Positions 36,847-53,582 of a stretch of 64,000 nucleotides of DNA are shown here, piece after piece (positions within the stretch are counted from its first letter, which is position 1; every line of letters starts with the position of its first letter). The position numbers were made by a program, and so were the translations under genes. The notes under the pieces were generated by a model that searched no databases, was not told the DNA's origin, and saw nothing but the letters and a program-made list of their open reading frames with translations. The stretch is taken from the IMG/VR virus record IMGVR_UViG_3300017971_000034, positions 1 to 64,000 of that record. One strand, 5' to 3'. The stretch is from a virus.

Positions 36847-37267
36847 CCATGACTTCCCCGAACGCTCCCACCACCGTACTCCACACCTTGTCGCGGCGGC
36901 GCTCCTTAAGCCCGCGGTACCCCTTCACCTTCCTTAACGCGTACGTAACGGACGAGTGGTCCTTGCGCCCCAACCACGACGCAACGTCCACCAAGGGAGC
37001 GGCCGGAAACCAGCGCGCCAGGACCCAAGCAGCCACCTGGCGCGCCTCCCTAACCTGACCGTTGAGGCTGTCCCCCCTAACGTCCCGCGACGATACCCCG
37101 TAGAGGTGGGAGACGACGTCCAAGATATCCTGCCACCGGACGACCGCTGATACCGTTATCGGCGGGCCCCTCAGGATCCCCGCACATTCGCGGAGGGCGT
37201 CCGACAGGACCTCGGCACACTGGGCCAACCGCTCGTCGACGCCCTGAACGATTGACCGGTCGTTCAC
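36806..37267 (-). CDS. DnaA domain IV-like DNA-binding protein
   Basis: 153 residues from GTG 37267, which overlaps the preceding stop. Residues about 50-130 match the DNA-binding domain of Dna[20 protein letters not shown], then [17 protein letters not shown], and the signature [19 protein letters not shown]. The AAA+ ATPase part is absent. It could recognise DnaA-box-like sites at the phage origin or interfere with host initiation. It overlaps the RecA start by 41 bp. Confidence 0.7.
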
Positions 37268-37446
37268 GATGGCCACCGCGTCAGGAACGTGGAACCCTTG
37301 CCGTAGTACCGGCGGGCCCACCAATACGTCAGGCGCCGCTGAATCCTGCACAGGGCAGCCCGACCCACCTCTCCTTCAACGCCGAACGACCGCAGCAGCC
37401 GGCGCTGAGACCTGAAAACGTTCCTAGGATTCACGGTCCACCTCAT
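37264..37446 (-). CDS. Small basic protein
   Basis: 60 residues, ATG at 37446. Arg-rich with aromatic residues (RIQRRLTYWWARRYYGKGS), likely nucleic-acid binding. Overlaps both neighbours. Not recognised. Confidence 0.5.
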   Translation of the reverse strand: MRWTVNPRNVFRSQRRLLRSFGVEGEVGRAALCRIQRRLTYWWARRYYGKGSTFLTRWPS

Positions 37447-38135: not shown

Positions 38136-38496
38136 GCATTAAATTACTACAAACGAAACGAGAACAACCGCCGCACAACCACACCTCCCCGCACCCGGTA
38201 ACGGGACCACCAAAACCGGAAACGTCTAACCAGGTACCGTTCACCGGGAGGGGAGACACCCGCGCCACGAACAGGTCGAACAGCTCCCGCACCCTGGATA
38301 GAGCCTCGACGGCCTCGTCCACGGACAGGTCCCGACCCGCACAGTCGCCGGACCACTCGCTGCGGAGGTCCGAGAACAACGCCGCGCCCTCCTCACCGGC
38401 GACATGGTACGCTACCTCGGACAACTCCTCAACGAGGGCGGCCAAGCACCCCGTATAGCTACAGGTACCCCGACCCCCCACGGTGACCGTTACCAC
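38107..38496 (-). CDS. Hypothetical Cys-rich protein downstream of purZ
   Basis: 129 residues from a GTG at 38496 that overlaps the purZ stop; a GTG five codons later is possible. Helical middle (ALVEELSEVAYHVAGEEG) and a C-terminal Cys pair (LCGGCSRFVC). Not recognised. Coupling to purZ may mean a linked role. Confidence 0.45.
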   Translation of the reverse strand: MVTVTVGGRGTCSYTGCLAALVEELSEVAYHVAGEEGAALFSDLRSEWSGDCAGRDLSVDEAVEALSRVRELFDLFVARVSPLPVNGTWLDVSGFGGPVTGCGEVWLCGGCSRFVCSNLMLDTEYGIMF

Positions 38497-39563
38497 GGGA
38501 ACGACCGACGCCACACGGTATCGGCTACCCGCGGGCCGGTAGACAGGATATCGAAGGGGCGCCCCACCAGGGACTCGTTGTTCCGGATCCAGTCCCTGGT
38601 CTTGGTAGATAGACGGCCCCATTCGCACACCCCCCTATCCTCGTGGTTCAGGTAGTCGACGAAGGTCAGCGCCAGCCGCGTCGGTTGACATACCGTAACG
38701 GCCCTCCTGACCTCCAACGGGTCGAACAACGCAACGCGGCGGGTACGCTTCGACACGGTCGTCTGCTCGACGATCGGCTCCGGGGACCCGGAAAACTCCG
38801 TAACCTCCTCCCACGTGGTCTCCCTACCCATGGGGCCGCTAGTTCCTGACCCAACCGACGGTACGCGGATGGGGAAGGTACGCACCACCATTACGACCTC
38901 GTTAACCAGGTGCGGGGCCACCCCCACCTCGGAACACACCACCGCCGGGCTGGTATCGCGCGAGGTAACGTACGGGTAGTACCCGTAGTAGGAGCTGAGG
39001 CCGAACCCCTGCGTACCCTCCAACAGGATGTTGCGGCCCTCGGTACGGGCTTCGTCCACCACCGACGGAACGTCCCCCAGGTACCTCTGGAAGCGCGGTT
39101 CGTCACCCGCCAGCGGGACGTCCCGCCTGCCGCGGTCCAGTATACGGCGGGCCAGGGCCTCGCCGGTTCCCTCGGCCGTGGACCCTATGCGGTCCCGCAG
39201 CGACCCCTCCGGAGAATTCCCGTCGTCGACGTGACCCTCGCGCCTCATATCCTCCCGCGTTACCAGACTAGCGCGCGGGTCGATAACGAGGCGGTCGGGC
39301 CCCAACCCGAACCTGGCTATCTCCTCGCACAGTACGTCCGGCTGCAGTACCGCCCCGGGGCCGATGGCCATCCGCAGGTGCCGATAACACGCACCAGAAG
39401 GGAGACTGCGCGTAACGTGGAACGCGCCGTTCGGACCCTCGAACACGTGCCCCGCGTTGGGGCCGCCACCGCGTACCGACAGGTCCGCCCCCTGAGCCAG
39501 CATACCGGCCACCTTGCCCTTCCCCTCGGAACCGAACTGGCCACCCACCACCACCGTTATCAT
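38490..39563 (-). CDS. purZ: PurZ: N6-succino-2-aminodeoxyadenylate synthase
   Basis: 357 residues, ATG at 39563 behind GAGGAGGAGTGAG. The first motif is GGQFGSEGKGK (7-17) with Ser12 where PurA has catalytic Asp (GDEGKGK); this change is the mark of PurZ in Z-genome phages. His39 in PNAGHVF matches the catalytic His. Further PurA-family motifs follow (LLEGTQGFGLS, YYPYVTSRDTSP, FPIRVPSVGSG). The length is shorter than PurA (about 430), as in PurZ. It condenses dGMP with aspartate using ATP or dATP; host PurB would then yield dZMP. Confidence 0.9.
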   Translation of the reverse strand: MITVVVGGQFGSEGKGKVAGMLAQGADLSVRGGGPNAGHVFEGPNGAFHVTRSLPSGACYRHLRMAIGPGAVLQPDVLCEEIARFGLGPDRLVIDPRASLVTREDMRREGHVDDGNSPEGSLRDRIGSTAEGTGEALARRILDRGRRDVPLAGDEPRFQRYLGDVPSVVDEARTEGRNILLEGTQGFGLSSYYGYYPYVTSRDTSPAVVCSEVGVAPHLVNEVVMVVRTFPIRVPSVGSGTSGPMGRETTWEEVTEFSGSPEPIVEQTTVSKRTRRVALFDPLEVRRAVTVCQPTRLALTFVDYLNHEDRGVCEWGRLSTKTRDWIRNNESLVGRPFDILSTGPRVADTVWRRSFPW

Positions 39564-39564
39564 C

Positions 39565-40398
39565 TCACTCCTCCTCGTCTATGTCTGGATAGGGGGTGTA
39601 ACAGCGGCACACCTCCCCGGTTATTGGAGACTGGGCGTACCTCTCCCCGAGGCGCCCGCCGCCCCTCATCCGCTCACAGGCAGCGCGTACCTTCCGCCAC
39701 CGCTTGGGATACGGAAGGTACGTCAACCGTGCGGAGAACGGCTCCACGTAGCACAGTTCGGCCAGCAACACGCCGACCGATATACACGGCTCCGACGCGG
39801 CACCGCCGTCCCACCCCCCGTAGTAGAAGTCCACGATGAGCGAGACCGCCTCCGGGAGGGTCTTAGCGTCCGACAAGACCCCCGCCAACCCGGCGCGGGA
39901 GACTGCTTTAGTGGGGGTTTCCGGCTCATCGGGGACCTTCTTGGAGGCCCCCCTACCGGTACCGGCCCTAACGGCACTCTTGGCGGCCCTCTTGGCGTAC
40001 AACTTCTCAAGCGGGGTTAGCGCGGGACCGCCCCTCTCCAGCGACGAGGTAAGCTTCTCGCGCAGCTCCTCGGTACTGTCCGAGTGGGTATACGGCACCC
40101 CGACCTTGTTCAAAACGCGACAAACCTGCCCGCGGTCCATGTGGGCAACGTTCAACTGCTCCTCCCGGCTGTAATAGTTTAGGGTATGGGTCCCGAACCA
40201 CGTGACGGTAACCGAGCACCGGCTACCGCTGCGCACGCGGACCTTGACCAATCCGAGGATGCGGAGGTAGTCGACCAGGGAAGGCCGACCTTCGGATATG
40301 CTCTCGCTAACCCAACACCGCCGCCGGTCCCGGCAACGGTCGTTTATGGCCCTTAGCAGGGCCAGCTCCGACACCCTGAGTTCCGGTATTTCGACCAT
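39565..40398 (-). CDS. Hypothetical protein upstream of purZ, winged-helix-like
   Basis: 277 residues from ATG 40398 behind GGAGAGGAAG, 22 bp after a promoter. The N-terminus (SELALLRAINDRCRDR, then SLVDYLRILGLVKVRV) looks like a winged-helix or primase-like helical domain. A basic linker follows, then a C-terminal region with TGEVCRCYTPYPD. Not recognised. It shares the promoter with purZ and may regulate or assist it. Confidence 0.5.
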   Translation of the reverse strand: MVEIPELRVSELALLRAINDRCRDRRRCWVSESISEGRPSLVDYLRILGLVKVRVRSGSRCSVTVTWFGTHTLNYYSREEQLNVAHMDRGQVCRVLNKVGVPYTHSDSTEELREKLTSSLERGGPALTPLEKLYAKRAAKSAVRAGTGRGASKKVPDEPETPTKAVSRAGLAGVLSDAKTLPEAVSLIVDFYYGGWDGGAASEPCISVGVLLAELCYVEPFSARLTYLPYPKRWRKVRAACERMRGGGRLGERYAQSPITGEVCRCYTPYPDIDEEE

Positions 40399-40427
40399 CT
40401 TCCTCTCCAACGAAAACCACCCGTTGG

Positions 40428-40457
40428 ATTAGAACACAGAGATATACATCTTGTCAA
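40428..40457 (-). promoter_or_regulatory. Sigma70-like promoter of the purZ unit
   Basis: TTGACA (40452-40457), 18 bp, TCTAAT (40428-40433) on the minus strand. The best -10 match of the set (five of six). It lies in an AT-rich piece that overlaps the end of the glycosylase remnant. Confidence 0.75.
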
Positions 40458-40464
40458 GTATATG

Positions 40465-40651
40465 TCCCTATCCCTTGCCTCTCGAACCCCCTGAAATAAC
40501 TCCGCAAAGACCGCCGCCACGTTCTCCGCCTTAACCCTGGGTAAAGCACCTCTACCAATAGTTCCGGTGGACAACCATGTTCCCGCCACGGGAGGCGACT
40601 ATCCAACCAATGCTCATCGGCCCATACCAGCAACGTCTCGGAATCAACCAT
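40465..40651 (-). pseudogene. Decayed copy of the N-terminus of the MutY-like glycosylase
   Basis: From ATG 40651 the frame reads VDSETLLVWADEHWL, then LPWREHGCPPELLVE, matching the 33647-34288 gene (VDSEALLAWADEHWL, LPWREPGCPPELQVLVE). The match then moves to another frame, GALPRVKAENVAAVF, aligned with GALPRTRAENVASVF; one G is missing at the junction. The rest of the glycosylase is absent; the promoter of the purZ unit follows. It is non-functional. Confidence 0.8.
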
Positions 40652-40982
40652 CTCCGTTCCCGTTGAACTCACGGCGAATACTTTCGACGAGTTCTTCAGC
40701 AAGCTTCTCTATTACCGCCATCCGAACACGGCCCGCGGCTTCTTCAACACGATGATACCGCTGCCGCATCCTAGCTAGAAGCCCCAACTCATCCGAACTG
40801 AAGGGGGCTACCATGTCGTAAGCATCACTAAGATCCTGACGCAAAATTAACTGGTCGACGTCACTTAGAATGCCAGACAAAAAAACCTGCCTGATAGCCC
40901 AACCCATCTTGTAAAGGTTTACTACGGCCAGCGTTCTATCGTTAGCAGCCAAAGCTGCCCTTACATGATACTTGCTACTCAT
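40644..40982 (-). CDS. Hypothetical helical protein
   Basis: 112 residues, ATG at 40982 behind GGGGAGGGAAA. Helical (LARMRQRYHRVEEAAGRVRM at its C-terminal part). DNA is less GC-rich than the backbone. It occupies the middle place of the duplicated three-gene block but I see no clear likeness to the 34300-34587 protein. Confidence 0.55.
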   Translation of the reverse strand: MSSKYHVRAALAANDRTLAVVNLYKMGWAIRQVFLSGILSDVDQLILRQDLSDAYDMVAPFSSDELGLLARMRQRYHRVEEAAGRVRMAVIEKLAEELVESIRREFNGNGDG

Positions 40983-41065
40983 TTTCCCTCCCCTTGTCTA
41001 CACAAACACACCGGCCGTCCCCTTACCTTCCTACACCGCAGGCAACGATACTCAGTAGGTGTTAG
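40979..41065 (-). pseudogene. Shortened copy of the zinc-ribbon gene at 34568
   Basis: The frame ending in the ATG overlap at 40979 reads LTPTEYRCLRC, then VRGRPVCLC. The 34568-34747 product reads VTPTECRCLRC, then VRGRPVCPC. About six residues between the Cys pairs and the whole N-terminus are missing. With the glycosylase remnant on its other side, this marks an old segmental duplication. Confidence 0.75.
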
Positions 41066-41490
41066 GTGACAACAGCTTGATCTTCCCGGAGAGCCTCGCA
41101 AGATCGCTTGTAGAGGACAGACGTGTTGACGGCGGGGATGTAGTGCCCGCAGACGTACAGTCGTAGAATCTCCAGCCAGTAGTAATACAGCACCTTCCAG
41201 AGCACCTTTCGCATCGGGCGCCCATTACGATCATGGGTCACCTTGATCAGTACGCAGTCACGGTTACTGATGTGGTGAATCGGAGTGTTACGATCGGGAT
41301 GCTGCCAGAACTTCCGGCCGGACCCACTGTGGTCGTAATCGTAGACGGGGATCACCTCGTCGCCGTCGCGGGTGACCCAGCCACGCCCGGTCGTGACAAA
41401 GCGACCGGAGGTCACTACAACGCCCGTCCAAGGAGCGTTATGGTGACTACGAACCCGAGTCCCGGGTCGTAGGCGTTCGGACTTGGCCAT
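41062..41490 (-). CDS. Hypothetical protein
   Basis: 142 residues, ATG at 41490. A small beta domain at the start (GTRVRSHHNAPWTGVVVTSG, then VTRDGDEVIPVYDYD) resembles SH3-like folds in phage proteins of unknown function; the second half is basic and aromatic. Codon use is more varied than in neighbours, suggesting acquisition. Not recognised. Confidence 0.55.
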   Translation of the reverse strand: MAKSERLRPGTRVRSHHNAPWTGVVVTSGRFVTTGRGWVTRDGDEVIPVYDYDHSGSGRKFWQHPDRNTPIHHISNRDCVLIKVTHDRNGRPMRKVLWKVLYYYWLEILRLYVCGHYIPAVNTSVLYKRSCEALREDQAVVT

Positions 41491-41499
41491 GTCACCCCC

Positions 41500-42264
41500 C
41501 TACAGGAAGCGGTTATGGGGGAGGCACGCGTACGCTTTCGCATCCTTCAAGGTCGCGAAGAGACGGAAGGCGAACTCCTCACCGTCGTGGCGATCGAGCC
41601 TCCAGTAGGACTGACTGCAGGTGTAACCGGCCTGCTTGGTGATCGTCCACGTGCCACAGGCGGTCTTGTAACTACCGTCGAGCTGACGAGACCACTTCAG
41701 GCCGTCCATGCGCTTCAAGAACTCGACCGCCGCCGCGGCCATCCTAGCGCGGTAGTTGACGTAACCAGGTGACCGGGAAAGCCTGGCGGCCAGGGCTCTC
41801 ACCACCTCGACGGGGTCGTCGGAACCTACCCCGAACCGTTCCGCCAGCACGGCCAGGCCAAGGTCCCTGGACCCCGGTTCGGGACAGGGGCGGACAGCCT
41901 CACCGACCGGGCACCACCGGGATACGGTAGGGCGGGCTATCCCAAGGACGTCCGACACGGTCTGGGCAGAGAACCCCGCCGCCACCAAGGCCTCGGCCCG
42001 GGCCCGGCGCAGGTCGGGCGGGCGTACGTTGCCCTCACCCCTAAAGTACAGGCACCGGTTTTGGAAATCGTCGCGGGTGAGGCGCTCCCGAACACACTCC
42101 ACCAAACTGCGGTGGAGCAGCCTAGACTCTGAAACGTTTAGGGAAGGGGACGCGGGAGGCTGGAAGCTTATCACGGCGTGTTGCCTACCGAGCGCGTCCT
42201 TGCACGCCTCCAGAAGGTCCCGGGGCAGTACCTCGTCAGCCTGTAAATACCTGTAGGAACCCAT
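41500..42264 (-). CDS. HTH DNA-binding protein
   Basis: 254 residues from the ATG at 42264 that overlaps the mazZ stop (TGATG). Residues about 93-122 (EALVAAGFSAQTVSDVLG, then IARPTVSRW) are a clear helix-turn-helix of resolvase/transposase-like type. The C-terminal domain (WSRQLDGSYKTACGTWTITK, then an aromatic stretch) is a small beta fold. A regulator or origin-binding role is possible. First gene after mazZ in the divergent unit. Confidence 0.6.
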   Translation of the reverse strand: MGSYRYLQADEVLPRDLLEACKDALGRQHAVISFQPPASPSLNVSESRLLHRSLVECVRERLTRDDFQNRCLYFRGEGNVRPPDLRRARAEALVAAGFSAQTVSDVLGIARPTVSRWCPVGEAVRPCPEPGSRDLGLAVLAERFGVGSDDPVEVVRALAARLSRSPGYVNYRARMAAAAVEFLKRMDGLKWSRQLDGSYKTACGTWTITKQAGYTCSQSYWRLDRHDGEEFAFRLFATLKDAKAYACLPHNRFL

Positions 42265-42563
42265 CAACGCCCCACCACGTCCGCCAGCATCATCACAAAA
42301 TTGGCCACGTCAGCCGCCTCCTCCAACACCCTAGCCGGGTCCAGGTCCTTACGAACCTTTGGAGATACCCCCCTACCCCACGCCGACCGCCGGATTACCT
42401 CCGCCTCAAGCTCCGCCAGCTCCTCCCGAGCACGGTACAGGAGCCAGAACGGATTACAATCGGACCAACCACCCTTATGGTCGTTCAGGCGGAGCTTGCG
42501 CTCCATCTCGCGCGCGAAGCTCCTTACCTCGGGGCGCACTTCCTCTCCGAACCCTTCGTCCAT
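42264..42563 (-). CDS. mazZ: MazZ-like nucleotide pyrophosphohydrolase
   Basis: 99 residues from the ATG at 42563 behind GGAGGTGCGGG; the longer frame from 42590 is less likely. The MazG metal-site pattern is present: REELAELE (47-52) and EEAADVAN (81-88), with the usual spacing between the two helices. MazZ in Z-genome phages converts dGTP to dGMP (and may act on dATP) to feed PurZ. Position in a unit with purZ downstream supports that role. Other MazG roles cannot be excluded. Confidence 0.7.
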   Translation of the reverse strand: MDEGFGEEVRPEVRSFAREMERKLRLNDHKGGWSDCNPFWLLYRAREELAELEAEVIRRSAWGRGVSPKVRKDLDPARVLEEAADVANFVMMLADVVGR

Positions 42564-42593
42564 CCCGCACCTCCTAACCCAAAAAAGCACACC

Positions 42594-42663
42594 GCCCAGG
42601 CCTAGTCAAGGATTACGAACAACTCCCTTGACAAGGAGGAAGAAGAAGGATACCATAAGCGGC
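42594..42663. promoter_or_regulatory. Divergent control region
   Basis: Separates the minus-strand mazZ/purZ unit from the plus-strand replication unit. It holds the plus promoter at 42628-42656 and, on the minus strand, TTGACT at 42605-42610 with only a poor T-rich -10 before mazZ. Two inverted CTTGAC-type elements (42605 and 42627) about 22 bp apart could bind one regulator. Confidence 0.5.
42628..42656 (+). promoter_or_regulatory. Sigma70-like promoter with leaderless start
   Basis: TTGACA (42628-42633), 17 bp, TACCAT (42651-42656). Transcription would begin at about 42663-42664, which is the A of the ATG of the resolvase gene; no ribosome site fits between. The -35 lies in CCTTGACAAGG. 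Confidence 0.7.
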
Positions 42664-43038
42664 ATGGGTAATAGCCAACGACGGAAGGGGGCGCGCTTCG
42701 AACGGGACACGGCCAACCACTACCGCACCCTACTGGGACGCGACGAAGTTAGGCGAGGGCTGCAGGACCGGGAGAAACCGTCCGAATGCGACGTTGAGGG
42801 GTTTAACCTACTCTTCGTCGAGACCAAGAACCAGAGGGTGGTAAACCCGAGGGCGGCGCTGGAACAAGCGCGCGACCAGGCAGCCGGGTTGGGGGACGGA
42901 AGGATACCGGTGGTGGTATTTCAAGAGGCACCCAGGGCCGGCAGGGTCAGGAAGGGGGACCGTACCTACGTCATCATGTACCGGGGTGGGTTCGACGAAT
43001 TACTACTAAAACTGCAGGAAGCGGGGGTGGAACCGTGA
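42664..43038 (+). CDS. Holliday-junction resolvase-like nuclease
   Basis: 124 residues from ATG 42664. KGARFERDTANHYR at the start, then CDVEGFNLLFVETKNQ, gives the PD-(D/E)xK set (Glu13, Asp43, Glu53, Lys55), as in archaeal Hjc and phage resolvases. It would cut branched DNA from replication and recombination before packaging. The mRNA appears to be leaderless. Overlaps the next gene by 4 bp. Confidence 0.7.
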   Translation: MGNSQRRKGARFERDTANHYRTLLGRDEVRRGLQDREKPSECDVEGFNLLFVETKNQRVVNPRAALEQARDQAAGLGDGRIPVVVFQEAPRAGRVRKGDRTYVIMYRGGFDELLLKLQEAGVEP

Positions 43039-43445
43039 CGGACTACGGCTGGCTATACGAACCCTGGCCACGGATTGAGAAGTGGAAGGGGTGCAGACCG
43101 GTAACCAAGGCCACCAACCCGCCGGGGGTAACGCTAACCGAGCGCGTCCGCAACGCCCTGGGAAGTTCGTTCTCGCGGTGGATGGACGTGTTATTGATGA
43201 CACCCCCCCAGCTCCTACGGATCAGGAACCTCGGGCCGGCCTCCCTCCGCGACCTACAGTGCGGGTTGGCAGAGGTGGGCCTGGCCCTCGCACCGGAACC
43301 GGGCCGCGCGATGAACCGGCTCCAGGTCGAACACGTTCACCGGAAGGCCTCGGAGCTCCTGCGCGAGACCCCGGAGGATCCGTACCTGCTGGGGATGGTA
43401 ACGGCATACGAGCACGTACTCGGTATAGGAAATACCGAACCGTGA
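43035..43445 (+). CDS. Protein with RNA-polymerase alpha-CTD-like helix-hairpin-helix
   Basis: 136 residues from a GTG at 43035 (GTGA overlap). Residues about 57-85 (LLRIRNLGPASLRDLQCGL, then AEVGLAL) strongly recall the DNA-binding helix-hairpin-helix of the RNA polymerase alpha C-terminal domain. The N-terminal part is unrecognised; the C-terminal part is helical. It may bind DNA or host polymerase to redirect transcription. The likeness could also be a generic HhH. Confidence 0.6.
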   Translation: MTDYGWLYEPWPRIEKWKGCRPVTKATNPPGVTLTERVRNALGSSFSRWMDVLLMTPPQLLRIRNLGPASLRDLQCGLAEVGLALAPEPGRAMNRLQVEHVHRKASELLRETPEDPYLLGMVTAYEHVLGIGNTEP

Positions 43446-44812
43446 AGCTAACCATCGACAACGTCTCGACCACCGTAGAAACAGACGAAGACGAGCTAGG
43501 GTGGCTGCGGGAATACCTAACGTACGAGGTGCCGGGGTACGACCCCAGGTCCCGCAAGCGGTACGTGGAGAGGTATTGCTCCCTGAGTAGAGAAAGGTTT
43601 CCATCCGGACTGGTAGAGATGGTGGAGGTAGCCGCCGCCGAAGACGAGGGGTTCTACGTTGAGCGGGTGGATAAGCGCAACCGCCCCACCGATGAATTCA
43701 GAGAGGACCGACTGGGGTGGCTGTACGATTACCAGCTAAAGGGCGTCCGAGCGGCCCACCGGAGCACCCGCGGGATACTAAGCCTGGCCACGGGGTCCGG
43801 TAAGACCGAGATAGGGATCGGACTGTCCCTAGCGATACCGGTAAAGTGGCTGTTCCTGGTAGACTCCAAGGACCTGATGTACCAGACCGCGGCCAGGTAC
43901 CACAACCGGACCGGGCTAGTCGCCGGAACTATCGGAGACGGCAGATGGGGTGAGTACCCGGGACACGGCGTTAGCGGCCTCAACTGCGCCACCTTCCAGA
44001 CCCTGTACCGGCACCTGGACGACGAGAGAACGCAAAGGCTGCTGGCGTCCACCGGAGGACTGATAGTGGACGAGGCCCACACCCTGCCAGCATCTACCTT
44101 CTGGCGCGTCTCCCAAGCGTGCGGGGCCTACTGGCGCCTGGGACTATCGGCCACACCCCTGGACCGCGAGGACCGCAGGTCCATACTGACGGTGGCGGCC
44201 CTGGGCCCCATCATATACCGGGTGCCGCCCCAGGACCTGATAGCCGCGGGGGCCGTGGCCCGGCCCAGGATCACCATGGTACCGTACCAACACCCTCGAC
44301 CTACCCCGGGGTCCCGCAGGAAGTGGGACAAGGTGTACAGGGACGGTGTATCCCGCAACGCCCACCGCAACCGGTTTACGGCATCGGTGGTGGTGCGGGC
44401 CGCGAAACCGTCCCTGGTGTTCGTAAAGCACACCAAGCACCTGTTCTCCCTGCAGGCAGCGCTACAACAAGAGGGGTTGGTTACCGAGGTGGCCCACGGG
44501 AAGCACTCCAGCTGGAAGCGCAGGGAGACGATGGAGGCTGCCAACAGAGGCGACGTCGACGCCGTAGTGTGCACGGTGGTGTTCCAGAAGGGTATCGATA
44601 TACCCGAACTACGCAGCGTCGTAAACGCCGCCGCCGGCAGGTCCGCCATAGCCTCCCTACAACGGCTGGGGCGCGGTATGAGGAACACCCCCAGCAAGGA
44701 CGAGTTCGAACTGTGGGACATCGCCGACGAGGGCGACCCGATGTTGGAGAAGCACTCCCGAACACGTGAGAAGACGTACAGGGACGAGGGATACGAGGTT
44801 AGGAGAGCATGA
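43442..44812 (+). CDS. SF2 DNA helicase (UvsW-like)
   Basis: 456 residues from the GTG at 43442. An N-terminal domain of about 95 residues precedes DYQLKGVRAAH (motif Q region). Walker A is ATGSGKT (116-122), DEAH is at 210-213, SATPL at 236-240, and QRLGRGMR (motif VI) near residue 413. It likely remodels recombination or replication intermediates, as T4 UvsW does, in line with the resolvase next to it. The stop overlaps datZ by 4 bp. Confidence 0.85.
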   Translation: MKLTIDNVSTTVETDEDELGWLREYLTYEVPGYDPRSRKRYVERYCSLSRERFPSGLVEMVEVAAAEDEGFYVERVDKRNRPTDEFREDRLGWLYDYQLKGVRAAHRSTRGILSLATGSGKTEIGIGLSLAIPVKWLFLVDSKDLMYQTAARYHNRTGLVAGTIGDGRWGEYPGHGVSGLNCATFQTLYRHLDDERTQRLLASTGGLIVDEAHTLPASTFWRVSQACGAYWRLGLSATPLDREDRRSILTVAALGPIIYRVPPQDLIAAGAVARPRITMVPYQHPRPTPGSRRKWDKVYRDGVSRNAHRNRFTASVVVRAAKPSLVFVKHTKHLFSLQAALQQEGLVTEVAHGKHSSWKRRETMEAANRGDVDAVVCTVVFQKGIDIPELRSVVNAAAGRSAIASLQRLGRGMRNTPSKDEFELWDIADEGDPMLEKHSRTREKTYRDEGYEVRRA

Positions 44813-45417
44813 AGAACGACACCGTACCAATACCGACCGCGTCCGGGCTGCTATTCGATCCGCTGAAGCCGACCCCGGACGGGATAAGGGCCGTCGACGT
44901 AGCCCACGCGCTGGCCAACAAGTGCCGGTATACCGGCCATACGAGGGTGTTCTACAGCGTCGCCGAACATAGTGTTAGGGTATCGCAGTACCTGCGCGAG
45001 GGGGGCGTGTGCCGGGAGGGGCAGCTATGGGGCCTGCTACACGACTGCGGCGAGGCCTACCTACCGGACATAGCTTCCCCGGTAAAGCCGCACGTGTGGA
45101 TACGCATCCCCGGTACGGGAACAGACATACCCTTCGAGGAAGCCGAGAGGAACGTCCTGAGGGCCGTAGCCGAGGCCCTAACCGTCCCCTGGGAAGGGCA
45201 CGACCGGTGGGCAGCGACCGTGAAGGAGGCCGACCTGGCCATACTGTCCTGGGAAGTCAGGGCGCTGCTGCCCCCCATACCCGGTTATTGGCGGGAGGCC
45301 GACAGAACCCTGAACAGATCCCCGCCGGCAGCCCCCGAACTTTCCGGAGCTCCGGGGTGGAAACCGCGGGTAGCCCGCGACGAGTTCCTGGTCTCGCTAG
45401 GTTCCCTGCTGGGGTGA
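44809..45417 (+). CDS. datZ: DatZ-like HD-domain dATP triphosphohydrolase
   Basis: 202 residues. GHTRVFYSVAEHSVRVS (43-59) and GLLHDCGEAYLPDI (75-88) carry the HD metal ligands His54, His78-Asp79 and Asp142 (KEADLAILSWE). This small HD family includes the DatZ proteins of Z-genome phages, which remove dATP so that polymerase uses dZTP. YfbR-type nucleotidases are related, and specificity is not visible in sequence; the presence of purZ and mazZ supports DatZ. Last gene before the non-coding region. Confidence 0.75.
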   Translation: MKNDTVPIPTASGLLFDPLKPTPDGIRAVDVAHALANKCRYTGHTRVFYSVAEHSVRVSQYLREGGVCREGQLWGLLHDCGEAYLPDIASPVKPHVWIRIPGTGTDIPFEEAERNVLRAVAEALTVPWEGHDRWAATVKEADLAILSWEVRALLPPIPGYWREADRTLNRSPPAAPELSGAPGWKPRVARDEFLVSLGSLLG

Positions 45418-45791
45418 GAAACGAATGGCCTACGGGACCTTCCGAGACACCACTTCCCCCCATAGCGCGCGCGGATGCGCGCGGCTTGGAAACGCGCCCA
45501 CACGGTGTAAGAACGCGCGCCTCAGCGCGTACCAAACACCGCGCGCGGGCGCGCGGGCGCGCGCGCTTTCACAGAAAACTTTTTCTTTTTCTTTGAAAAA
45601 GAAAACGTTTCCTGTAGTTCTTTAACTTTTTTTCAAAGAAAAAAAGAAAAGAACGCCGCAGTTCGAAACGTGCGGCCTTCTTATTTTTTTTCTTCACCTG
45701 GGGGCGCTTCGCGCCCCATCTAACATACATACCCCTTCCTACGGCATACCGAGATGTGCTAACCTAGCCGGTTGAAGGAGGAGAGCCTAGA
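45418..45791. other. Non-coding region, origin of replication candidate
   Basis: 374 bp with no convincing gene. The left part (45458-45570) is packed with GCGC palindromes and alternating CG runs that could form Z-DNA. Next come two AT-rich inverted repeats: TTTTCTTTTTC facing its complement at about 45577-45605, and CTTTTTTTC facing its complement at 45628-45650. Then a T-rich block and a GC hairpin GGGGCGC-TTC-GCGCCCC near 45702-45719. It lies just before helicase, primase and polymerase genes. An easily melted AT stretch beside structured GC repeats suits an origin or a replication-control site. Confidence 0.5.
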
Positions 45792-46484
45792 TTGGAGACT
45801 GCGGTTAGAGGTTCGGGGCGTCCGTTCGACGGTCTGTGGCCGTACCTGGAGCGGTGCGGGGTTCCTACCCCGCTCACGGCTAAGGTACCGGTGGCGGTCG
45901 TACCGGCCCCCGCCCTGGTCCCTAGCGATGCGACTTCGGAGGAGCTGATCAGGGTAGCCGTACGGTGTTACCGGGAGGCCTGCCACGTAGTGGGGGAGCC
46001 GCGAAAGGCGGTACGGTACCTGTACTCCCGCGGCATCGGTGGCGGCCTGCGTCGCAACATGCTAGCCGCCGCAGAACTGTTCCGCCGAAAATCCTGCTCC
46101 CCGCTGGGGTGGGCCGTGTGGAGCGCCCGCCAGTTCAGCAAGTTTAAGGGCTCCGGTAGACCCCCCGCCACCTACATGTACGCTCCCGGTAGGGTGAACA
46201 AACAGCGGGCCTGGTACCAGCGCGAATTCGAGCCGAGGGGCGGGTTAAGGATTACCGGTCCGGCGGCGTTAGAAGCTATGGACGTACTGGCCGAGGTTAG
46301 GGCCGCGGCCCTAACCTTCCGGGGACCACCGGAAGAGCTGGCGGCGACGGTAACGGGAGCGGTGGATTTGGAGAGGCTAAGGGAGGCGCTGTACCGCGCC
46401 GGGGAGGAGGCCGATGGTGAGAGGGAAAGATTCGACAGGTGCCTGCGGGACTGGCGTTGGATCCCGGAGTGGGACCGCTGTTAA
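45792..46484 (+). CDS. Hypothetical protein, first gene of the replication unit
   Basis: 230 residues from TTG 45792 behind GGAGGAGAGCCTAGA. Helical and basic in the middle (GLRRNMLAAAELFRRKSCSP, then WSARQFSKFKG). Not recognised. Its place between the putative origin and the DnaB-like helicase suggests an initiator or helicase loader, which is inference only. Confidence 0.55.
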   Translation: METAVRGSGRPFDGLWPYLERCGVPTPLTAKVPVAVVPAPALVPSDATSEELIRVAVRCYREACHVVGEPRKAVRYLYSRGIGGGLRRNMLAAAELFRRKSCSPLGWAVWSARQFSKFKGSGRPPATYMYAPGRVNKQRAWYQREFEPRGGLRITGPAALEAMDVLAEVRAAALTFRGPPEELAATVTGAVDLERLREALYRAGEEADGERERFDRCLRDWRWIPEWDRC

Positions 46485-46541
46485 AGAATCTCAGGGACCG
46501 CGACCGCACCGCCCAACGCAAGCTTCAGGAAGAAAGAAACG

Positions 46542-47894
46542 ATGACTGAGGGGTACGGGTTCGATCCCGCCTTCGAGGCGGCGGTGGTACTGACGTTAAC
46601 CCAGAGTCACCGGTTCTACGGGATGGCTGGTCACTACGTGGACCCGGAACTACTATCCTGTAAGGAGGCATCGTGGCTGTGTACGGCGGCCCACGCCGTT
46701 TACAAGGACTCTGGAAGGGGACCGGAATCTTCCATTCTGGTGGTGCAGCGTCTGCGCCGGTGGATGAACGCTGGCAGGTTGACCTTCGAAGCGTTGGAGG
46801 CCGCGGTAAACTACCTGAACCGGGCCGAGGACGATGGCCTGCCGAACGAAGATGCCATCCTGGTCGAGCTGGTACCGGTCCTGAAGCGGAGGTACGAACA
46901 CCGCGTGGCCCGAGCCGGCCTCGACAACTACTCCAAGCGGGGCGACTTCGGGGAGGTGGTAAAGCTCCTGGAGGAGGCCCGCCGGATAGGGGAGAACGAC
47001 GTATCGCTGGGTTCCCAACTCGGCAGCGACAGCTTCCGGGATATAGAGGCGCTGCGCCACCTAGACCGGCTTCCGACCGGAATCGACGACCTGGACCTGG
47101 CGATGAGCGGGGGGATGCCGAGGGGACTGACGGGGGTCGTCATGGGGGGCACCGGCGAGGGCAAGTCGATGTTCCTGTCCCAGGTGGCGTCCTACAACCT
47201 GCTGAACGGTCTGATGGTGTGCTACGCCGTGGTATCGGACCTGGACGAGGCGGACGTTAAGGCGCGCATGATCGCTAACCTGACGGGAACCCCGATCGAC
47301 GCCGTCATGGCCGGGTCGGACGAGGCCAGGTTCAGGCTCGCGGCGCTGGAACCGAAGCTCGGTATCGGCATGGTGAAGGAGTTCACGGAGGACGTTACCG
47401 CGGTGGCCGATATTCTGGAGTGGGTATCGGCCTGCCAGGACTACCACGGGCGCCGCTGCGACCTGCTGGTGGTGGACTACGCGGACCGCCTGGCGGCCCC
47501 CGCCGAGAAGTCGGAGTACAACGCTATGAAGGTCGTGTACGAGGCCCTACGCAAAGCTGGGAAACGCGACAAGCGGTGGACCTGGACCGCCAGCCAATCG
47601 CGAGACCGCGACGAGAAATCCAAGCGTATCAAGACCCACCGGGACGCGGCCGACAGCATCAACAAGGCGCGCGTTGTCGACGCGTGGATCACGCTGAACG
47701 TGTGGGAGTCGGAGTCCAGCCCGACGGGACTGGATCAGTACTTCTTCATATCGAAGTTCAGGAAGGGCAGGGCCCGCGTCAAGGTCGGCCCGCTGGAGGT
47801 AGAGTACGAACTGGGGCGGGTAGCGCCGTCCCGCACCCTGGAGAAACTACACCAGGGTACCGGTAGCGGGAGGCGTGCCGCGTGGGTGCTGTAG
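46542..47894 (+). CDS. DnaB-like replicative helicase
   Basis: 450 residues, ATG behind AGGAAGAAAGAAACG. A helical N-terminal domain (about 1-150) is followed by a RecA-like motor: LPTGIDDLDLAMSGGM, Walker A GGTGEGKS (202-209), Walker B LLVVDYADRL, and the DnaB H4 region TWTASQSRDRDEKS. A C-terminal strand has KFRKGRARVKVGP. It unwinds DNA at the fork, with the primase encoded one gene later. Confidence 0.85.
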   Translation: MTEGYGFDPAFEAAVVLTLTQSHRFYGMAGHYVDPELLSCKEASWLCTAAHAVYKDSGRGPESSILVVQRLRRWMNAGRLTFEALEAAVNYLNRAEDDGLPNEDAILVELVPVLKRRYEHRVARAGLDNYSKRGDFGEVVKLLEEARRIGENDVSLGSQLGSDSFRDIEALRHLDRLPTGIDDLDLAMSGGMPRGLTGVVMGGTGEGKSMFLSQVASYNLLNGLMVCYAVVSDLDEADVKARMIANLTGTPIDAVMAGSDEARFRLAALEPKLGIGMVKEFTEDVTAVADILEWVSACQDYHGRRCDLLVVDYADRLAAPAEKSEYNAMKVVYEALRKAGKRDKRWTWTASQSRDRDEKSKRIKTHRDAADSINKARVVDAWITLNVWESESSPTGLDQYFFISKFRKGRARVKVGPLEVEYELGRVAPSRTLEKLHQGTGSGRRAAWVL

Positions 47895-48317
47895 GTGAGC
47901 GGGGCCTTCGCCAGTATAGCCGAGGTAATAGAGGAGCTGCGGCGCAGGGCCGGGGTTCACGAAACGTTAACCGCCAAGGAACGGTGGGGTGGCGGTATCC
48001 CCACGTGGGGGGACGACATGGGCGCAGCCATAGAGAGCGAGTTTGACTTCGACAAGGACGACCTGCCCGGCGCTGACGAACTCAACGCGTGGGTCGCCAA
48101 ACTATCCCCGGCGTGCCTGGTCAACCTCAGCGCGTGGGACCTGTCGGCGCTGGCGGACACCGTTAAGATGATCGTCAACGACCGCCTGGACCACCTCCAC
48201 GACTACGTCAAGGACGTGCTATTAGAAACAACATTCGGAGTACCGAACAAGGCGCTGACTTTAAAAGAGGAAAAAACCCTAGCGGTGTTGTCACGCCTCG
48301 AACGGTGCCGCCTGTAG
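47895..48317 (+). CDS. Hypothetical protein between helicase and primase
   Basis: 140 residues from GTG 47895, 1 bp after the helicase stop. Acidic (ESEFDFDKDDLPGADELNAW) with helices at the end (MIVNDRLDHLHDYVKDVL). Not recognised. Likely works with the fork proteins because of tight coupling on both sides. Confidence 0.55.
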   Translation: MSGAFASIAEVIEELRRRAGVHETLTAKERWGGGIPTWGDDMGAAIESEFDFDKDDLPGADELNAWVAKLSPACLVNLSAWDLSALADTVKMIVNDRLDHLHDYVKDVLLETTFGVPNKALTLKEEKTLAVLSRLERCRL

Positions 48318-49207
48318 TATGTCCCTTGACAAAGTACCAACAGGTGTGGCCCGATAAACACATGGACGCCGCAATCCTAAATGCTATAGCGGACATGAAC
48401 CCGTCGAGTAGCGGATGGTTCCGCGCCAACTGCCCGTTCTGCGAACAGCGCGTCGGCAAGGTCGACCGGCAACGGTGCCTGGCCGTCAACGTTAGAACCG
48501 GCCGCTACATGTGCTGGCGCTGTGAGGTCAGGGGCTCGGTCCCGGTAGAGGTACTGTCCCACCAGGACCGGGCGGTAACCGTCGTCGACCACGGCCACCG
48601 CTACCTCGGGAAGCCCGAAGGGTTCTACCGGCTCGGGGGTCGCCCTCCCCTATCGCTGCGGCGCGCCGCCCTCTACTTGGATAAACGGAGGGTGCCGCGC
48701 TCCGCGGTCCGGGAGCTGGGGATCGGTGCGGCCGTGAGCGGGTACCTGTCGCACCGGGTGGTGGTCCCGGTTAAGGGTTACGGTAGTAGGTGGTTAGGGT
48801 GGGTGGCCAGGTCGTATAGCGGCGCCGAACCGCGCTACCTGTACCCCCCCGGGATGAGGAGGGGCGAGCTCCTCTTCAACGAGGCGCGCCTAACCTGGGA
48901 TACGGACTCCCCGGCGCTGCTGGTTGAGGGCGTCATGGATGCCCTGCCACACTGGCCGCACGCCGTCGCATGTCTCGGGAAGCCTAGCCGGTGGCAGAAG
49001 GAACGCCTGCGGTCCGCCGATTGCCCGATAGCCGTAGCACTAGACTCGGACGCACAAGACGAAGGATGGGCGCTGGCGATGGAGCTACGGCTCTACGGTC
49101 GGCGCGCCGGTTTCGTGAAGCTACCGCCCGGGAAGGACCCGGGCGACATGACCGACACCGGACGGTTGCTGGAAGCCGCCGTGAGGTCGATCTACGAGGA
49201 GGTCTAA
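48305..49207 (+). CDS. DnaG-type primase
   Basis: 300 residues from a GTG at 48305; starts at 48329 (TTG) or 48362 (ATG) are also open. Zinc ribbon ANCPFC...YMCWRC (Cys43, 46, 70, 73). The TOPRIM part has LLVEGVMDALPH (Glu208) and VALDSDAQDE (Asp247, Asp249), with KLPPGKDPGDM at the end. Shorter than host DnaG and lacking the helicase-binding domain. It makes primers for the polymerase encoded two genes on. Confidence 0.85.
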   Translation: MPPVVCPLTKYQQVWPDKHMDAAILNAIADMNPSSSGWFRANCPFCEQRVGKVDRQRCLAVNVRTGRYMCWRCEVRGSVPVEVLSHQDRAVTVVDHGHRYLGKPEGFYRLGGRPPLSLRRAALYLDKRRVPRSAVRELGIGAAVSGYLSHRVVVPVKGYGSRWLGWVARSYSGAEPRYLYPPGMRRGELLFNEARLTWDTDSPALLVEGVMDALPHWPHAVACLGKPSRWQKERLRSADCPIAVALDSDAQDEGWALAMELRLYGRRAGFVKLPPGKDPGDMTDTGRLLEAAVRSIYEEV

Positions 49208-49208
49208 A

Positions 49209-49919
49209 GTGATCAAACAGCTCGGTTTCGTTACCGAAATTCATGGTGAGACGCCGGACGAGGGTAGGCGCTGCGTCTTCGCCACCAACGACGTTAAAGT
49301 ACAGACGCTGTACGTGGAGAACGTATCGTACGACGAGGCCGTGGCTATCGTCGCGTGGTTCGACAACAAAACATCCGAGGATCTCGTTACGGTCTCCAGC
49401 CGCGCCATCGGTGACGCCGACTACACCGAGGCCGATCCCAAACCCGTCTTGGCGGTCGGTCCCGAATCAAAGGCGGGGCGCTCGCGGAGCAAGGCTGACC
49501 AGAAGGTTGGGTGTACAACCGGGATCTCGGAAACGACCCCGTACGACGAGACCGAAGCCGACCCCGAGCCAAAGGCGAAGAAGACGAGGGGATCGGCGAA
49601 AAGGAAGAAGAAGTCAAAGGGATCCGAGAAGGCGAAGAAGGCGACCGATATCGATCCCAGCGACGCCGCGGAACGCCTGCGGAACGAGACCTCCGAAAAA
49701 CTGGACAAGACCCCGCCCAACGGGGTTCCGGAGGAGCTCCTGGAGGTAAACCAGATCAAGCAGGTGGTACTATATTTCGTGAACCTCGGCATGGGCCCTG
49801 ACGACATCGACGAGGTCACCGAGACCTGCGAGGTGTGGAAGGAGTCCATACCGGCGCTGGCAAGGGTAAAGGCAAACCTGCGCGACCGCCTACACCGCCT
49901 GCTGACCATCCACGGATGA
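49209..49919 (+). CDS. Hypothetical protein with Lys-rich linker
   Basis: 236 residues. A small alpha/beta N-terminal domain (VFATNDVKVQTLYVENVSYD), a long charged, Lys/Ser-rich disordered linker (about 85-150) and a helical C-terminal domain (EVNQIKQVVLYFVNLGMGPD). Not recognised; stop overlaps the polymerase ATG. It could be a clamp-like or accessory replication factor, but nothing specific shows it. Confidence 0.55.
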   Translation: MIKQLGFVTEIHGETPDEGRRCVFATNDVKVQTLYVENVSYDEAVAIVAWFDNKTSEDLVTVSSRAIGDADYTEADPKPVLAVGPESKAGRSRSKADQKVGCTTGISETTPYDETEADPEPKAKKTRGSAKRKKKSKGSEKAKKATDIDPSDAAERLRNETSEKLDKTPPNGVPEELLEVNQIKQVVLYFVNLGMGPDDIDEVTETCEVWKESIPALARVKANLRDRLHRLLTIHG

Positions 49920-52387
49920 AGAGGATACCCCTGTACGACCGCTCCTTCGGGCTCCCGGTCTCCGACTATTCCTCCGCGCTCGATACCGACCCCCGGTGCG
50001 AGCGGTGCGAGCTGCACCGCGGAACCGGGCACGTCTGCCTACCGGCCGAAGGGCAACCGGGGGGCCTGCTGGTAGTGGGCGGGGCGGTATCGAAGGCCGA
50101 CGACCGCGCCGGTAGGCCGTACTCCGGGACTACCGGAGGGTACCTGCGCCGCCTGTTGCGGGACGCTTACGGGGGCCCAGTGGCCCTAACCTACGCCGTT
50201 CGCTGCAACCCGCGGCGCGGAAGGGTGGCCACCAAGCACGTTAACGCCTGCCGTCCCTACCTATCCGGCGTCCTGGGAGACGCCGACCCGGAGCGCGTGG
50301 TCCTCCTCGGCGGAATCGCCGCTGAGGGATTCGTCGGGTACCCGGTCCACCCTACGAGCGCGCGCGGCGGCTATATATACACCGGGGACGCCGTACCGGT
50401 CTTCTACCTCCCTTGGCCCGGTCCCCAGGTACAGGGTAACAGGTTCTACCGGGCAGAGTTCGAGGAGGACCTGCGGTGGGCCTTGGAAACCGACCCCGCC
50501 CTCCCCCCGTGGCGCGGTAGCTCACTGGTGGTGGAGGACGAATTGGACGCCGCCGAAGCCGTCGCGGTATTGGAGACGGTCGGTAGGTTCTCCTTCGACT
50601 GCGAGACGTACGGTCGGCAACACGACGAGGACTTCCGGTTACTGTGCGTAGCCTGTTCCCCGGAAGGGTTCGACGACGCGTACGTTTGGCCGGAGGCTGC
50701 CCTGCGGGACCCCGGCATCTCCGGCTACCTGAAGAGGTTGATGGCTAACCCGCGGGTCGTTAAGGACGGTCACAACGTCAAGTACGACCAGGAGAGCGTG
50801 TGGTTAGCTATGGGGGTTGAGGTCGAGGGCATCTTCGGCGATACCCGGGTGTGGCGGCGCATGGTCGAAACGGAGGCTAGCGGCAGGTTGGAGGACGTTG
50901 CCGAGTTGGTGGGTATGGGCGGTCACAAGAGGGAGGCCAAGTACTACGTGGACCGGGCGAAGCGCAGGCTGAGGGCCCAGGATAAGGAAACCTCCGTCCT
51001 GGGCGGGTGGTACCGCGGTAAGAACTACGACCGCTACGCCTACGCCGCCGTTCCAGACGATACCCTGCACCGGTACGTGGCCCTGGACGCGGTCTCCACC
51101 CAGAGGTTGACCGCGCACCTGTGGGGGGAGCTGGGGGAAGCCGGCCTGCAGCACGTGTGGGAAGACCAGCTTAGGGACGCTAGCTGGGCCCTCGGGTGGG
51201 TAGAGAGGTGGGGGATGCCGGTCGACCGAGACCAGGCCCGGCTAGCCACCGAATACGTAAATTCCCGCCTGGCGGAACTGGACGGCAGGCTCCGCCACTA
51301 CGGCGACATCAACTTCAACTCGGTGCCGCAACTGTCCGACCTACTGTTCAACCAGCTCGGGCTTCGCACCACCGTCCTTACCGGAACCGGGAAGCCGAGT
51401 ACCGGTAAGGAGGCGCTCGCAGAGATGGAGGGGCAGCACCCGATAGTGGCCAACCTGCGGGAACACAAACGGTTGGAGGCCCTACGCACCAAGTTTATCG
51501 TCCCTATCGGTGAACACACCTGCGACGATGGCCGGGTCCACCCCGCGCTATTGTTGGACGGTACGGGAACCGGGCGCCTGTCGTGCAGGGAGCCGAACCT
51601 GCAGGCCATCAAGAAGGGGGACAAGGGCGACGAGGAGCGCATGATGCGCAACATCTTCGCTGCCCCCGCCGGCCGCAAGCTGGTACAGTTCGACTACAGC
51701 CAGATGGAGCTCCGGATAGCGGCGGCCATCAGCGGGGACGAGGCGATGAAGGAGGTGTTCCTGTCGGGAAAGGACTACCACGCCCGGACGGCTGCCTTCA
51801 TACAGGATCTGGTGCCGTTCCAGGTGGACCGACGCATGGCCAAGGCGGTCAATTTCGGCCTCATCAACGGTGTAGGAGACGCACGCATAGCGCACGACCT
51901 GAAGATCACCGAAGCACAGGCTGCTAGCATCCGGAAGGCCATTACGTCCAAATTCCACGGGTACGCTTCCTGGGTGCGCCGTACCGTGTACGAGTCCACC
52001 AAGTCCGGATTCGCCCATACCGTCTGGGGACCGGACCTGAGCAGGTCCCGCCGCCGCAAGATCTACAACATCGGGAGCCCAAACTCCGCCCAGAAGCACA
52101 ACGGAACCATAGCCGCCTACAATACCGCGGTGCAGGGGACGGCCTCGGACTACTGCCTGGCCTCCCTCGTGGAGGTATGTAGGTGGATCCACGACGACGC
52201 GGTCCCGGCGAAACTCATCCTGCAGATACACGACGCGCTAGTACTGGAGTGCGGCGAGGACGCGGTGGACGAGGTACTGTACCAGGTTAACAGGATCATG
52301 ACGTCCTGGCCGTCTATGGGTGTCCCCCTGAAGGTAGACGCCGAGGTCGGCCCGTCGTGGGGGGAGATGGAGGAAGTGAGGCTGTGA
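49916..52387 (+). CDS. dpoZ: Family A DNA polymerase (DpoZ candidate) with N-terminal Fe-S UDG-like domain
   Basis: 823 residues from the ATG at 49916 (ATGA overlap). Residues 25-190 are UDG-like: CERCELH (Cys28, Cys31), GRPYSGTTGGYLRRLL, TYAVRCNPRRGR (Cys97) and NACRPYL (Cys112), the family 4 [4Fe-4S] spacing, though the motif-1 catalytic residues look degenerate (GGAVSKADD). The 3'-5' exonuclease starts at FSFDCETYG (Asp228, Glu230) with DGHNVKYD and YVALDAVS. Polymerase motifs are DYSQMELRI (about 593), RRMAKAVNFGLING (about 639-652, Asn where Pol I has Tyr766) and QIHDALVLE (about 770). In a Z phage it would copy dZTP into DNA. Confidence 0.88.
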   Translation: MKRIPLYDRSFGLPVSDYSSALDTDPRCERCELHRGTGHVCLPAEGQPGGLLVVGGAVSKADDRAGRPYSGTTGGYLRRLLRDAYGGPVALTYAVRCNPRRGRVATKHVNACRPYLSGVLGDADPERVVLLGGIAAEGFVGYPVHPTSARGGYIYTGDAVPVFYLPWPGPQVQGNRFYRAEFEEDLRWALETDPALPPWRGSSLVVEDELDAAEAVAVLETVGRFSFDCETYGRQHDEDFRLLCVACSPEGFDDAYVWPEAALRDPGISGYLKRLMANPRVVKDGHNVKYDQESVWLAMGVEVEGIFGDTRVWRRMVETEASGRLEDVAELVGMGGHKREAKYYVDRAKRRLRAQDKETSVLGGWYRGKNYDRYAYAAVPDDTLHRYVALDAVSTQRLTAHLWGELGEAGLQHVWEDQLRDASWALGWVERWGMPVDRDQARLATEYVNSRLAELDGRLRHYGDINFNSVPQLSDLLFNQLGLRTTVLTGTGKPSTGKEALAEMEGQHPIVANLREHKRLEALRTKFIVPIGEHTCDDGRVHPALLLDGTGTGRLSCREPNLQAIKKGDKGDEERMMRNIFAAPAGRKLVQFDYSQMELRIAAAISGDEAMKEVFLSGKDYHARTAAFIQDLVPFQVDRRMAKAVNFGLINGVGDARIAHDLKITEAQAASIRKAITSKFHGYASWVRRTVYESTKSGFAHTVWGPDLSRSRRRKIYNIGSPNSAQKHNGTIAAYNTAVQGTASDYCLASLVEVCRWIHDDAVPAKLILQIHDALVLECGEDAVDEVLYQVNRIMTSWPSMGVPLKVDAEVGPSWGEMEEVRL

Positions 52388-53226: not shown

Positions 53227-53582
53227 GTAAAACCTCGCGAGCGTTGGACCACCGCGGCCCCGTATGGGGACAGGTGGCTGAGCTGATCGATCTGTGGAAG
53301 GACGGCGGTTCGTGTAGCAGTACCGACCTCGCCACCGACATACTGGAGGTCGTTAGGCGGGTCCTGGCCAACCAGGGTCAGGACGGCCCCGAGCAGTTGG
53401 TATGCTGTTTCCGGGGATGCGACGAGGTCGCCGAGTGGGCCCTGACACCCTGTGACGGTACCTCCCGACAACGAGCAGGACACTACACGCACGTCTGCGA
53501 CGAGCACGTCGGGAAGCTGCTGTCGTGCGGCCGCGGAATCGACTGGAGCGTTAGCCCGCTCGGTGGACGGGATGAAGGATAA
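53223..53582 (+). CDS. Hypothetical Cys/His-containing protein
   Basis: 119 residues, ATG 53223. Helical start (WGQVAELIDLWKDGG), then CCFRGCDEVAEWALTPCDG and HVCDEHVGKLLSCGRG, a C/H arrangement suggestive of one zinc site. Overlaps the deaminase start by 11 bp. Not recognised. Confidence 0.5.
   Translation: MSKTSRALDHRGPVWGQVAELIDLWKDGGSCSSTDLATDILEVVRRVLANQGQDGPEQLVCCFRGCDEVAEWALTPCDGTSRQRAGHYTHVCDEHVGKLLSCGRGIDWSVSPLGGRDEG

Follow-up and report, generated by a model that had tools for sequence, protein, structure and literature searches.

In a 64,000-nucleotide stretch of viral DNA (bases 1-64000 of the 70,821-base IMG/VR record IMGVR_UViG_3300017971_000034; hereafter the window), I found a gene for a PurZ-like protein, a homologue of adenylosuccinate synthetase (PurA) with serine in place of the catalytic aspartate. 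The most likely reading, with a probability of roughly 0.57, is that this phage has a genome containing 2-aminoadenine (Z), made with a different and partly generic set of helper genes. An earlier, sequence-only reading of the same DNA had proposed a complete PurZ/DatZ/MazZ/DpoZ pathway in a myovirus. Two of the four parts of that pathway, DatZ and DpoZ, fail. The four genes that it named are all present, in two diverging units, with the purZ and mazZ candidates on the minus strand and the datZ and dpoZ candidates on the plus strand (Table 1).

The serine of the PurZ-like protein, Ser12, lies in the motif QFGSEGKGK, as the sequence-only reading had noticed. In the alignment, the equivalent position is occupied by aspartate in 14 of 14 PurA sequences and by serine in all Ser-type sequences. 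Every Ser-clade residue that was checked is found in the window protein: S12 (D in PurA), S128 (T), PIRV, SG242-243, T268 (G), K272 (G), and Y304 (V). From the alignment, T268 appears to match the position of T273 in the PurZ of cyanophage S-2L; T273, S23, and Q308 of the S-2L enzyme are named as PurZ-specific and substrate-contacting residues (PMC8342488). Asp303 is retained, as in all PurA and PurZ0 sequences, whereas it is replaced by N or Q in the PurZ proteins of VP2, SH-Ab, S-2L, and OH. The titles of the solved structures mention GTP for Pyrococcus horikoshii PurA and ATP or dATP for phiVC8 and S-2L PurZ. Since Asp303 is kept, and since GTP is bound by P. horikoshii PurA but ATP or dATP by these PurZ proteins, a preference for GTP may be assumed for the PurZ-like protein. 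For PurZ0 and PurZ, one paper has "ATP and GTP, respectively" (PMC12884076), but this wording conflicts with the solved structures and with the introduction of the same paper. Residues and clade membership together point to dGMP as the probable substrate.

It was found in a careful tree of 64 sequences that the Ser-type proteins form one clade apart from the PurA proteins, both the long ones and the short archaeal ones, with support of 100/100. In a larger tree of 120 sequences, the separation from PurA has a Shimodaira-Hasegawa-like approximate likelihood ratio test (SH-aLRT) value of 99. A phylogeny of PurZ versus PurA had been proposed as a check by the sequence-only reading, and it places the PurZ-like protein in the Ser-type clade; the PurZ claim is thus backed by both tree and residues. 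For the same reasons, the identification of the protein as an ordinary PurA was rejected. In approximately unbiased (AU) tests, grouping with the PurZ0 core of cultured phages was rejected (p = 0.027), while the values were p = 0.087 for grouping with PurZ0 plus other viral sequences and p = 0.213 for grouping with PurZ. Joining the window protein to PurA gave p = 0.141; that is, a position as the first branch of the Ser clade is not rejected. In the best tree, the protein stands beside a kinase-fused, mostly bacterial chromosomal clade with weak support (81/64). Judged from its sequence, it represents a deep, orphan lineage of Ser-type PurZ homologues. An AlphaFold 2 (AF2) model of the protein is good (predicted local distance difference test score, pLDDT, 88) and has the PurA/PurZ fold. 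A Foldseek search with this model, which is unable to separate PurA from PurZ, placed P. horikoshii PurA first, and phiVC8 PurZ and PurZ0 were also strong matches.

A scan of viral contigs with the window PurZ as a single sequence gave no relative, while an alignment-based scan did find relatives. Two IMG/VR contigs of one virus type (L011 and L013) have, directly behind DnaB, a Ser-type PurZ fused to a kinase, and their helicase, primase, RecA, and family A polymerase fused to a uracil-DNA glycosylase (UDG) domain are all homologous to window genes. Ser-type PurZ and such a UDG-PolA are also paired in the loci L067, L022, and L089. Among the indirect evidence, this repeated location within replication modules best supports a role of PurZ in DNA synthesis. 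The PurZ gene of L067 is followed by a separate gene for a nucleotide-kinase-like protein. A tail sheath is encoded in another viral record bearing a PurZ-like gene (L014); thus, the window gene is not the sole case in contractile-tailed viruses.

Ser-type PurZ-like proteins were also found at no fewer than 289 places in bacterial and archaeal genomes of many phyla, and an AAA_18/AAA_33 nucleotide kinase is often fused to their N-terminus. The neighbours of the 80 chromosomal loci L090-L169 include genes for DUF7002 (49/80), M78/IrrE peptidase (38/80), DCD-like proteins, and deoxynucleoside kinase (dNK). A normal PurA is present in all but one of the 14 checked genomes with a chromosomal PurZ-like gene, the exception being a Nanoarchaeota metagenome-assembled genome. 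No description of this chromosomal family was found in the literature searched. In the window record, no AAA_18 kinase matching that of the kinase-fused PurZ relatives was found.

The small MazG-like protein had been taken as MazZ. Its relationship to MazZ-2 is supported, with an hhalign probability of 99.3% against a profile of the VP2, OH, and L077 MazZ-2 proteins, phmmer E-values of 6e-4 to 6e-6 against these proteins, and a family, phrog_9860, in common with OH MazZ-2. Relatives are present in the PurZ loci of VP2, OH, L077, and L027. However, the protein is not specific to PurZ phages: its closest relatives (up to 56% identity) occur in 12 viral records, some of them fragments, none of which has PurZ, and a check for PurZ in records with relatives of 46-56% identity likewise gave 0/14. 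Thus, this gene is not diagnostic of PurZ phages.

A DUF5664 protein resembling dATP/dGTP diphosphohydrolases was overlooked by the sequence-only reading. With phmmer, it matches the DUF5664 protein of Arthrobacter phage Wayne (6e-10) and the DUF5664-DUF550 fusion of SH-Ab (1e-7), both of which hydrolyse dATP and dGTP; the Wayne enzyme yields monophosphates (PMC12884076). Thus, the window DUF5664 could be sufficient both for the supply of dGMP and for the removal of dATP. It is adjoined by a dCMP deaminase-like gene, whose true start is probably further in. With PADLOC, there was no match for PurZ, MazG, or the HD protein, and its only match was dCTPase, on the dCMP deaminase. Thymidylate synthase was searched for in the record and is absent; thus, nothing points to a pathway for modified pyrimidines like that of SPO1.

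The small HD-domain protein had been called DatZ. Such a protein is indeed encoded, and the alignment shows that its catalytic residues are retained (R40, H54, H78, D79, E82, K93, K139, and D142), but it is not of the DatZ type. The DatZ controls from VP2, SH-Ab, S-2L, and OH (4/4) match phrog_7076, which is named dATP triphosphohydrolase, whereas the window protein has no match to this family and belongs to phrog_318. A search of the whole record with the phrog_7076 profile gave nothing, while the same profile does match in E. coli. At the positions of DatZ W20, I22, Q29, and G74 (S-2L numbering), the protein has Y41, T42 (or G43), Y49, and P86. W20 and I22 are the residues for sugar and 2-amino selectivity, and Q29 and G74 are strictly conserved (PMC8065100). 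In a phmmer search of the PurZ-bearing loci L003-L089 of phages and viruses, the HD protein had no relative, and the phages with its best relatives do not include any of the PurZ phages listed. DatZ was rejected as an identity because the protein lies outside phrog_7076 and its DatZ-specific residues are replaced. By family and residues, it is an HD phosphohydrolase, and it is not predicted to spare 2-amino purines. The AF2 model of this protein (pLDDT 41, two sequences) is too poor for use.

The gene assigned to DpoZ does encode a family A polymerase, but its scores are below both NCBIfam DpoZ cut-offs: 108 bits for DpoZ_1 (cut-off 500) and 71 bits for DpoZ_2 (cut-off 350), compared with 334 bits for ordinary PolI. 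In the trees, the polymerase belongs to a 95/96-supported set with nine non-Z polymerases, near the SPO1-like and Serbin-type UDG-PolA, and lies outside both the VC8-like and the Wayne-like DpoZ clades. Forcing it into either clade costs 17-21 log units (AU p = 0.060 and 0.066), so that a place within them is disfavoured by these trees. In the alignment, the window polymerase lacks the finger insertion found in VC8-like DpoZ. Given the two cut-offs and the two clades, DpoZ was rejected. The open reading frame (ORF) of the polymerase begins at 49835, but the ATGA overlap at 49916 suggests that the ATG there is the likely true start. Its N-terminal UDG domain had been overlooked. This domain retains iron-sulphur-type cysteines. 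GEAPG and HPS are motifs of family-4 UDGs. Neither motif was found in the UDG domain of the window polymerase, while L011 and L067 have GEAPG. Thus, the domain may be inactive as a glycosylase.

How could Z be made with these genes? Gene identities, clade membership, active-site residues, and gene neighbourhood are directly established, and from them I infer the substrates, the direction of flux, and the presence of Z in the DNA, whether full or partial. In the most likely route, the Ser-type PurZ condenses dGMP with aspartate, probably with the use of GTP. The product would be the precursor of the Z deoxynucleotide, and PurB and kinases of the host would complete dZTP. The MazZ-2-like MazG and the DUF5664 hydrolase would produce the dGMP from dGTP. 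The competing dATP would be drained by DUF5664, which may convert it to dAMP, and perhaps also by the HD phosphohydrolase. The UDG-fused polymerase, which has no DpoZ ancestry, would then copy the dominant purine of the pool, like the PrimPol of S-2L. In S-2L, a nonspecific polymerase combined with control of the nucleotide pool is known to yield Z-DNA (PMC8065100). Since S-2L already shows that the two can suffice, Z in the DNA of the window phage is plausible by way of DUF5664, the HD phosphohydrolase, and an unselective polymerase.

Comparison with the known Z systems shows a mixture of traits. The PurZ0/DpoZ-1 phages (Wayne and Gordonia phage Ghobes) likewise have a Ser-type PurZ that carries the Asp at the guanine-nucleotide site, and Wayne shares the DUF5664 dATP/dGTP hydrolase. 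Unlike these phages, the window has a contractile tail and lacks dutZ, dmtZ, and a phage purB, and its PurZ and polymerase lie outside the PurZ0 core and the Wayne-like DpoZ clade, respectively. The PurZ/DatZ/MazZ/DpoZ-2 phages (phiVC8/VP2, SH-Ab 15497, and OH) share a Ser-type PurZ and a MazZ-2-like MazG, the window MazG being closest in kind to those of OH and VP2. In contrast to these phages, the window has an HD protein other than DatZ, a PurZ that retains Asp303 where theirs have N or Q, a polymerase that is outside the VC8-like clade and has no VC8-like finger insertion, and an arrangement of the genes in two diverging units. The window resembles S-2L in that it would use a non-DpoZ polymerase with control of the deoxynucleoside triphosphate (dNTP) pool, although S-2L has PrimPol, a true DatZ, and MazZ-1. 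L011 and L013 have a Ser-type PurZ in a similar module of helicase, DnaB, primase, UDG-PolA, and RecA, but their PurZ is fused to an N-terminal nucleotide kinase, and no relatives of HD, MazG, or DUF5664 were seen in their 18-21 kb. The chromosomal Ser-type family is the closest by tree path (38-46% identity; motif GGQ[FY]GSEGK), yet its members lie in chromosomal islands and many are fused to an AAA_18/AAA_33 kinase. It is a tentative proposal, somewhat short of an even chance, that the window represents a third gene set for Z-DNA in contractile-tailed phages, consisting of a PurZ lineage apart from PurZ0 and PurZ and allied with the bacterial kinase-fused PurZ, a UDG-fused family A polymerase, DUF5664, MazG, and HD, without DatZ, DutZ, or DpoZ.

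Several observations weigh against a Z genome. The PurZ-like protein scores 198.5 bits with the curated NCBIfam PurZ model, whose cut-off is 300, and the archaeal PurA model scores higher (282.8 bits), although this is also below its cut-off of 368. Its closest kin by tree path are bacterial chromosomal proteins of unassigned function, and thus a transfer of substrate to it is unsafe. DatZ, a DutZ of the dUTPase type, DmtZ, and a phage PurB were searched for in the record and none was found. The record may be a fragment, and it has no known isolate. The HD, MazG, and DUF5664 families are widespread among phages without PurZ, and DUF5664 is frequent in non-Z phages (1414 records). Like the lack of DpoZ, DatZ, and DutZ, this would suit ordinary genes of the dNTP pool in a phage with canonical DNA, PurZ being a recent acquisition that allows partial substitution at most. 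This has a small chance of being right: the codon-position GC of PurZ is similar to that of all the genes concerned (GC3 0.72-0.83), which gives no sign of recent acquisition, and the gene is preceded by a clear, strong ribosome site, GAGGAGG.

Is the enzyme instead a short PurA of the archaeal type that has lost Asp13 but still makes adenylosuccinate for AMP, or an auxiliary purine gene? P. horikoshii PurA is the best single PDB match (184 bits, vs 125 for phiVC8 PurZ) as well as the top Foldseek match, and the AU test leaves room for the window protein as the first branch of the Ser clade. However, the 100/100 split from PurA and the full set of Ser-clade residues, including T268 and K272, which bear on substrate binding (PMC8342488), make this quite improbable. 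Alternatively, the enzyme may make dZMP or a related modified purine nucleotide for a non-genomic use such as counter-defence or signalling, having been borrowed from the chromosomal family. Its nearest kin are indeed chromosomal, often kinase-fused, and located beside DUF7002, M78/IrrE peptidase, dNK, and DCD-like genes in bacteria that retain a normal PurA. Such a use is unlikely, since the gene lies inside replication modules in L011/L013 and L067, which fits DNA synthesis, and the window showed no toxin or sensor that could be its partner. Finally, the canonical system in which A is fully replaced by Z is largely refuted as stated and highly improbable; although Ser12, the MazZ-2-like MazG, an HD protein, and PolA all occur within 14 kb, the HD protein is outside the DatZ family with the four replaced residues, and the polymerase is outside both DpoZ clades and below their cut-offs.

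The myovirus assignment is confirmed by a tail sheath gene. The phage also encodes a portal, a maturation protease, a major head protein, and a large terminase, and a protein just beyond the window was read from the sequence as baseplate J. Among the phages with purZ plus datZ, only Siphoviridae and Podoviridae are listed (PMC8342488). A Pfam scan gave no match for the primase-like protein. The DnaA domain IV protein adjoins RecA. A C5-cytosine methyltransferase-like gene is interrupted by one in-frame TGA (58196-58198), with PPCQ and ENV motifs in the N part and a match to the end of PF00145 in the C part; it may be a pseudogene, a two-part gene, or an error.

Table 1. Positions of the genes and sites discussed, in window coordinates.
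Feature	Position	Strand	Evidence
PurZ-like protein (Ser-type adenylosuccinate synthetase homologue), 357 aa	38490..39563	-	PF00709 8.4e-49; phrog_1211 PurZ 3.4e-69
Ser12 codon, position of catalytic Asp13 of E. coli PurA	39528..39530	-	translation
Small MazG-like protein, MazZ-2 relative, 108 aa	42264..42590	-	candidate for dGTP to dGMP; motif EELAE...EAAD
HD-domain phosphohydrolase, phrog_318 dNMP-phosphatase family, 202 aa	44809..45417	+	phrog_318 1.6e-42
Family A DNA polymerase: UDG-like domain, 3'-5' exonuclease, polymerase	49916..52387	+	Pfam UDG, DNA_pol_A_exo1, DNA_pol_A
UDG-like domain of the polymerase	49916..50500	+	
dCMP deaminase-like protein	53452..54177	+	PF00383 2.1e-16; phrog_174 3.9e-28
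DUF5664 / dATP-dGTP diphosphohydrolase-like protein	54174..54758	+	PF18909 6.8e-30; phrog_801 3.3e-37
ResIII/Helicase_C helicase, replication module	43112..44812	+	homologue in PurZ contig L011/L013
DnaB-like replicative helicase	46542..47894	+	homologue directly upstream of kinase-PurZ in L013
Primase-like protein	48305..49207	+	homologues in L011/L013 (3e-14) and L067
RecA	35887..36846	-	PF00154 1e-104
Protein with DnaA domain IV	36806..37351	-	Bac_DnaA_C 1.7e-11
SbcC- and SbcD-like genes	30762..33764	-	phrog_77, phrog_100
Tail sheath	1497..3512	-	phrog_279, E 8.9e-42
C5-cytosine methyltransferase-like gene	57581..58420	+	PF00145

If Z is made by this phage, the trait would be independent of the specialised partners DatZ and DpoZ and would reach the contractile-tailed phages. 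There would then be three or more combinations of helper genes by which Z arises. Moreover, with hundreds of Ser-type members in bacterial and archaeal chromosomes, it can be tested directly where PurZ came from and whether 2-aminopurine nucleotides are used outside viruses.

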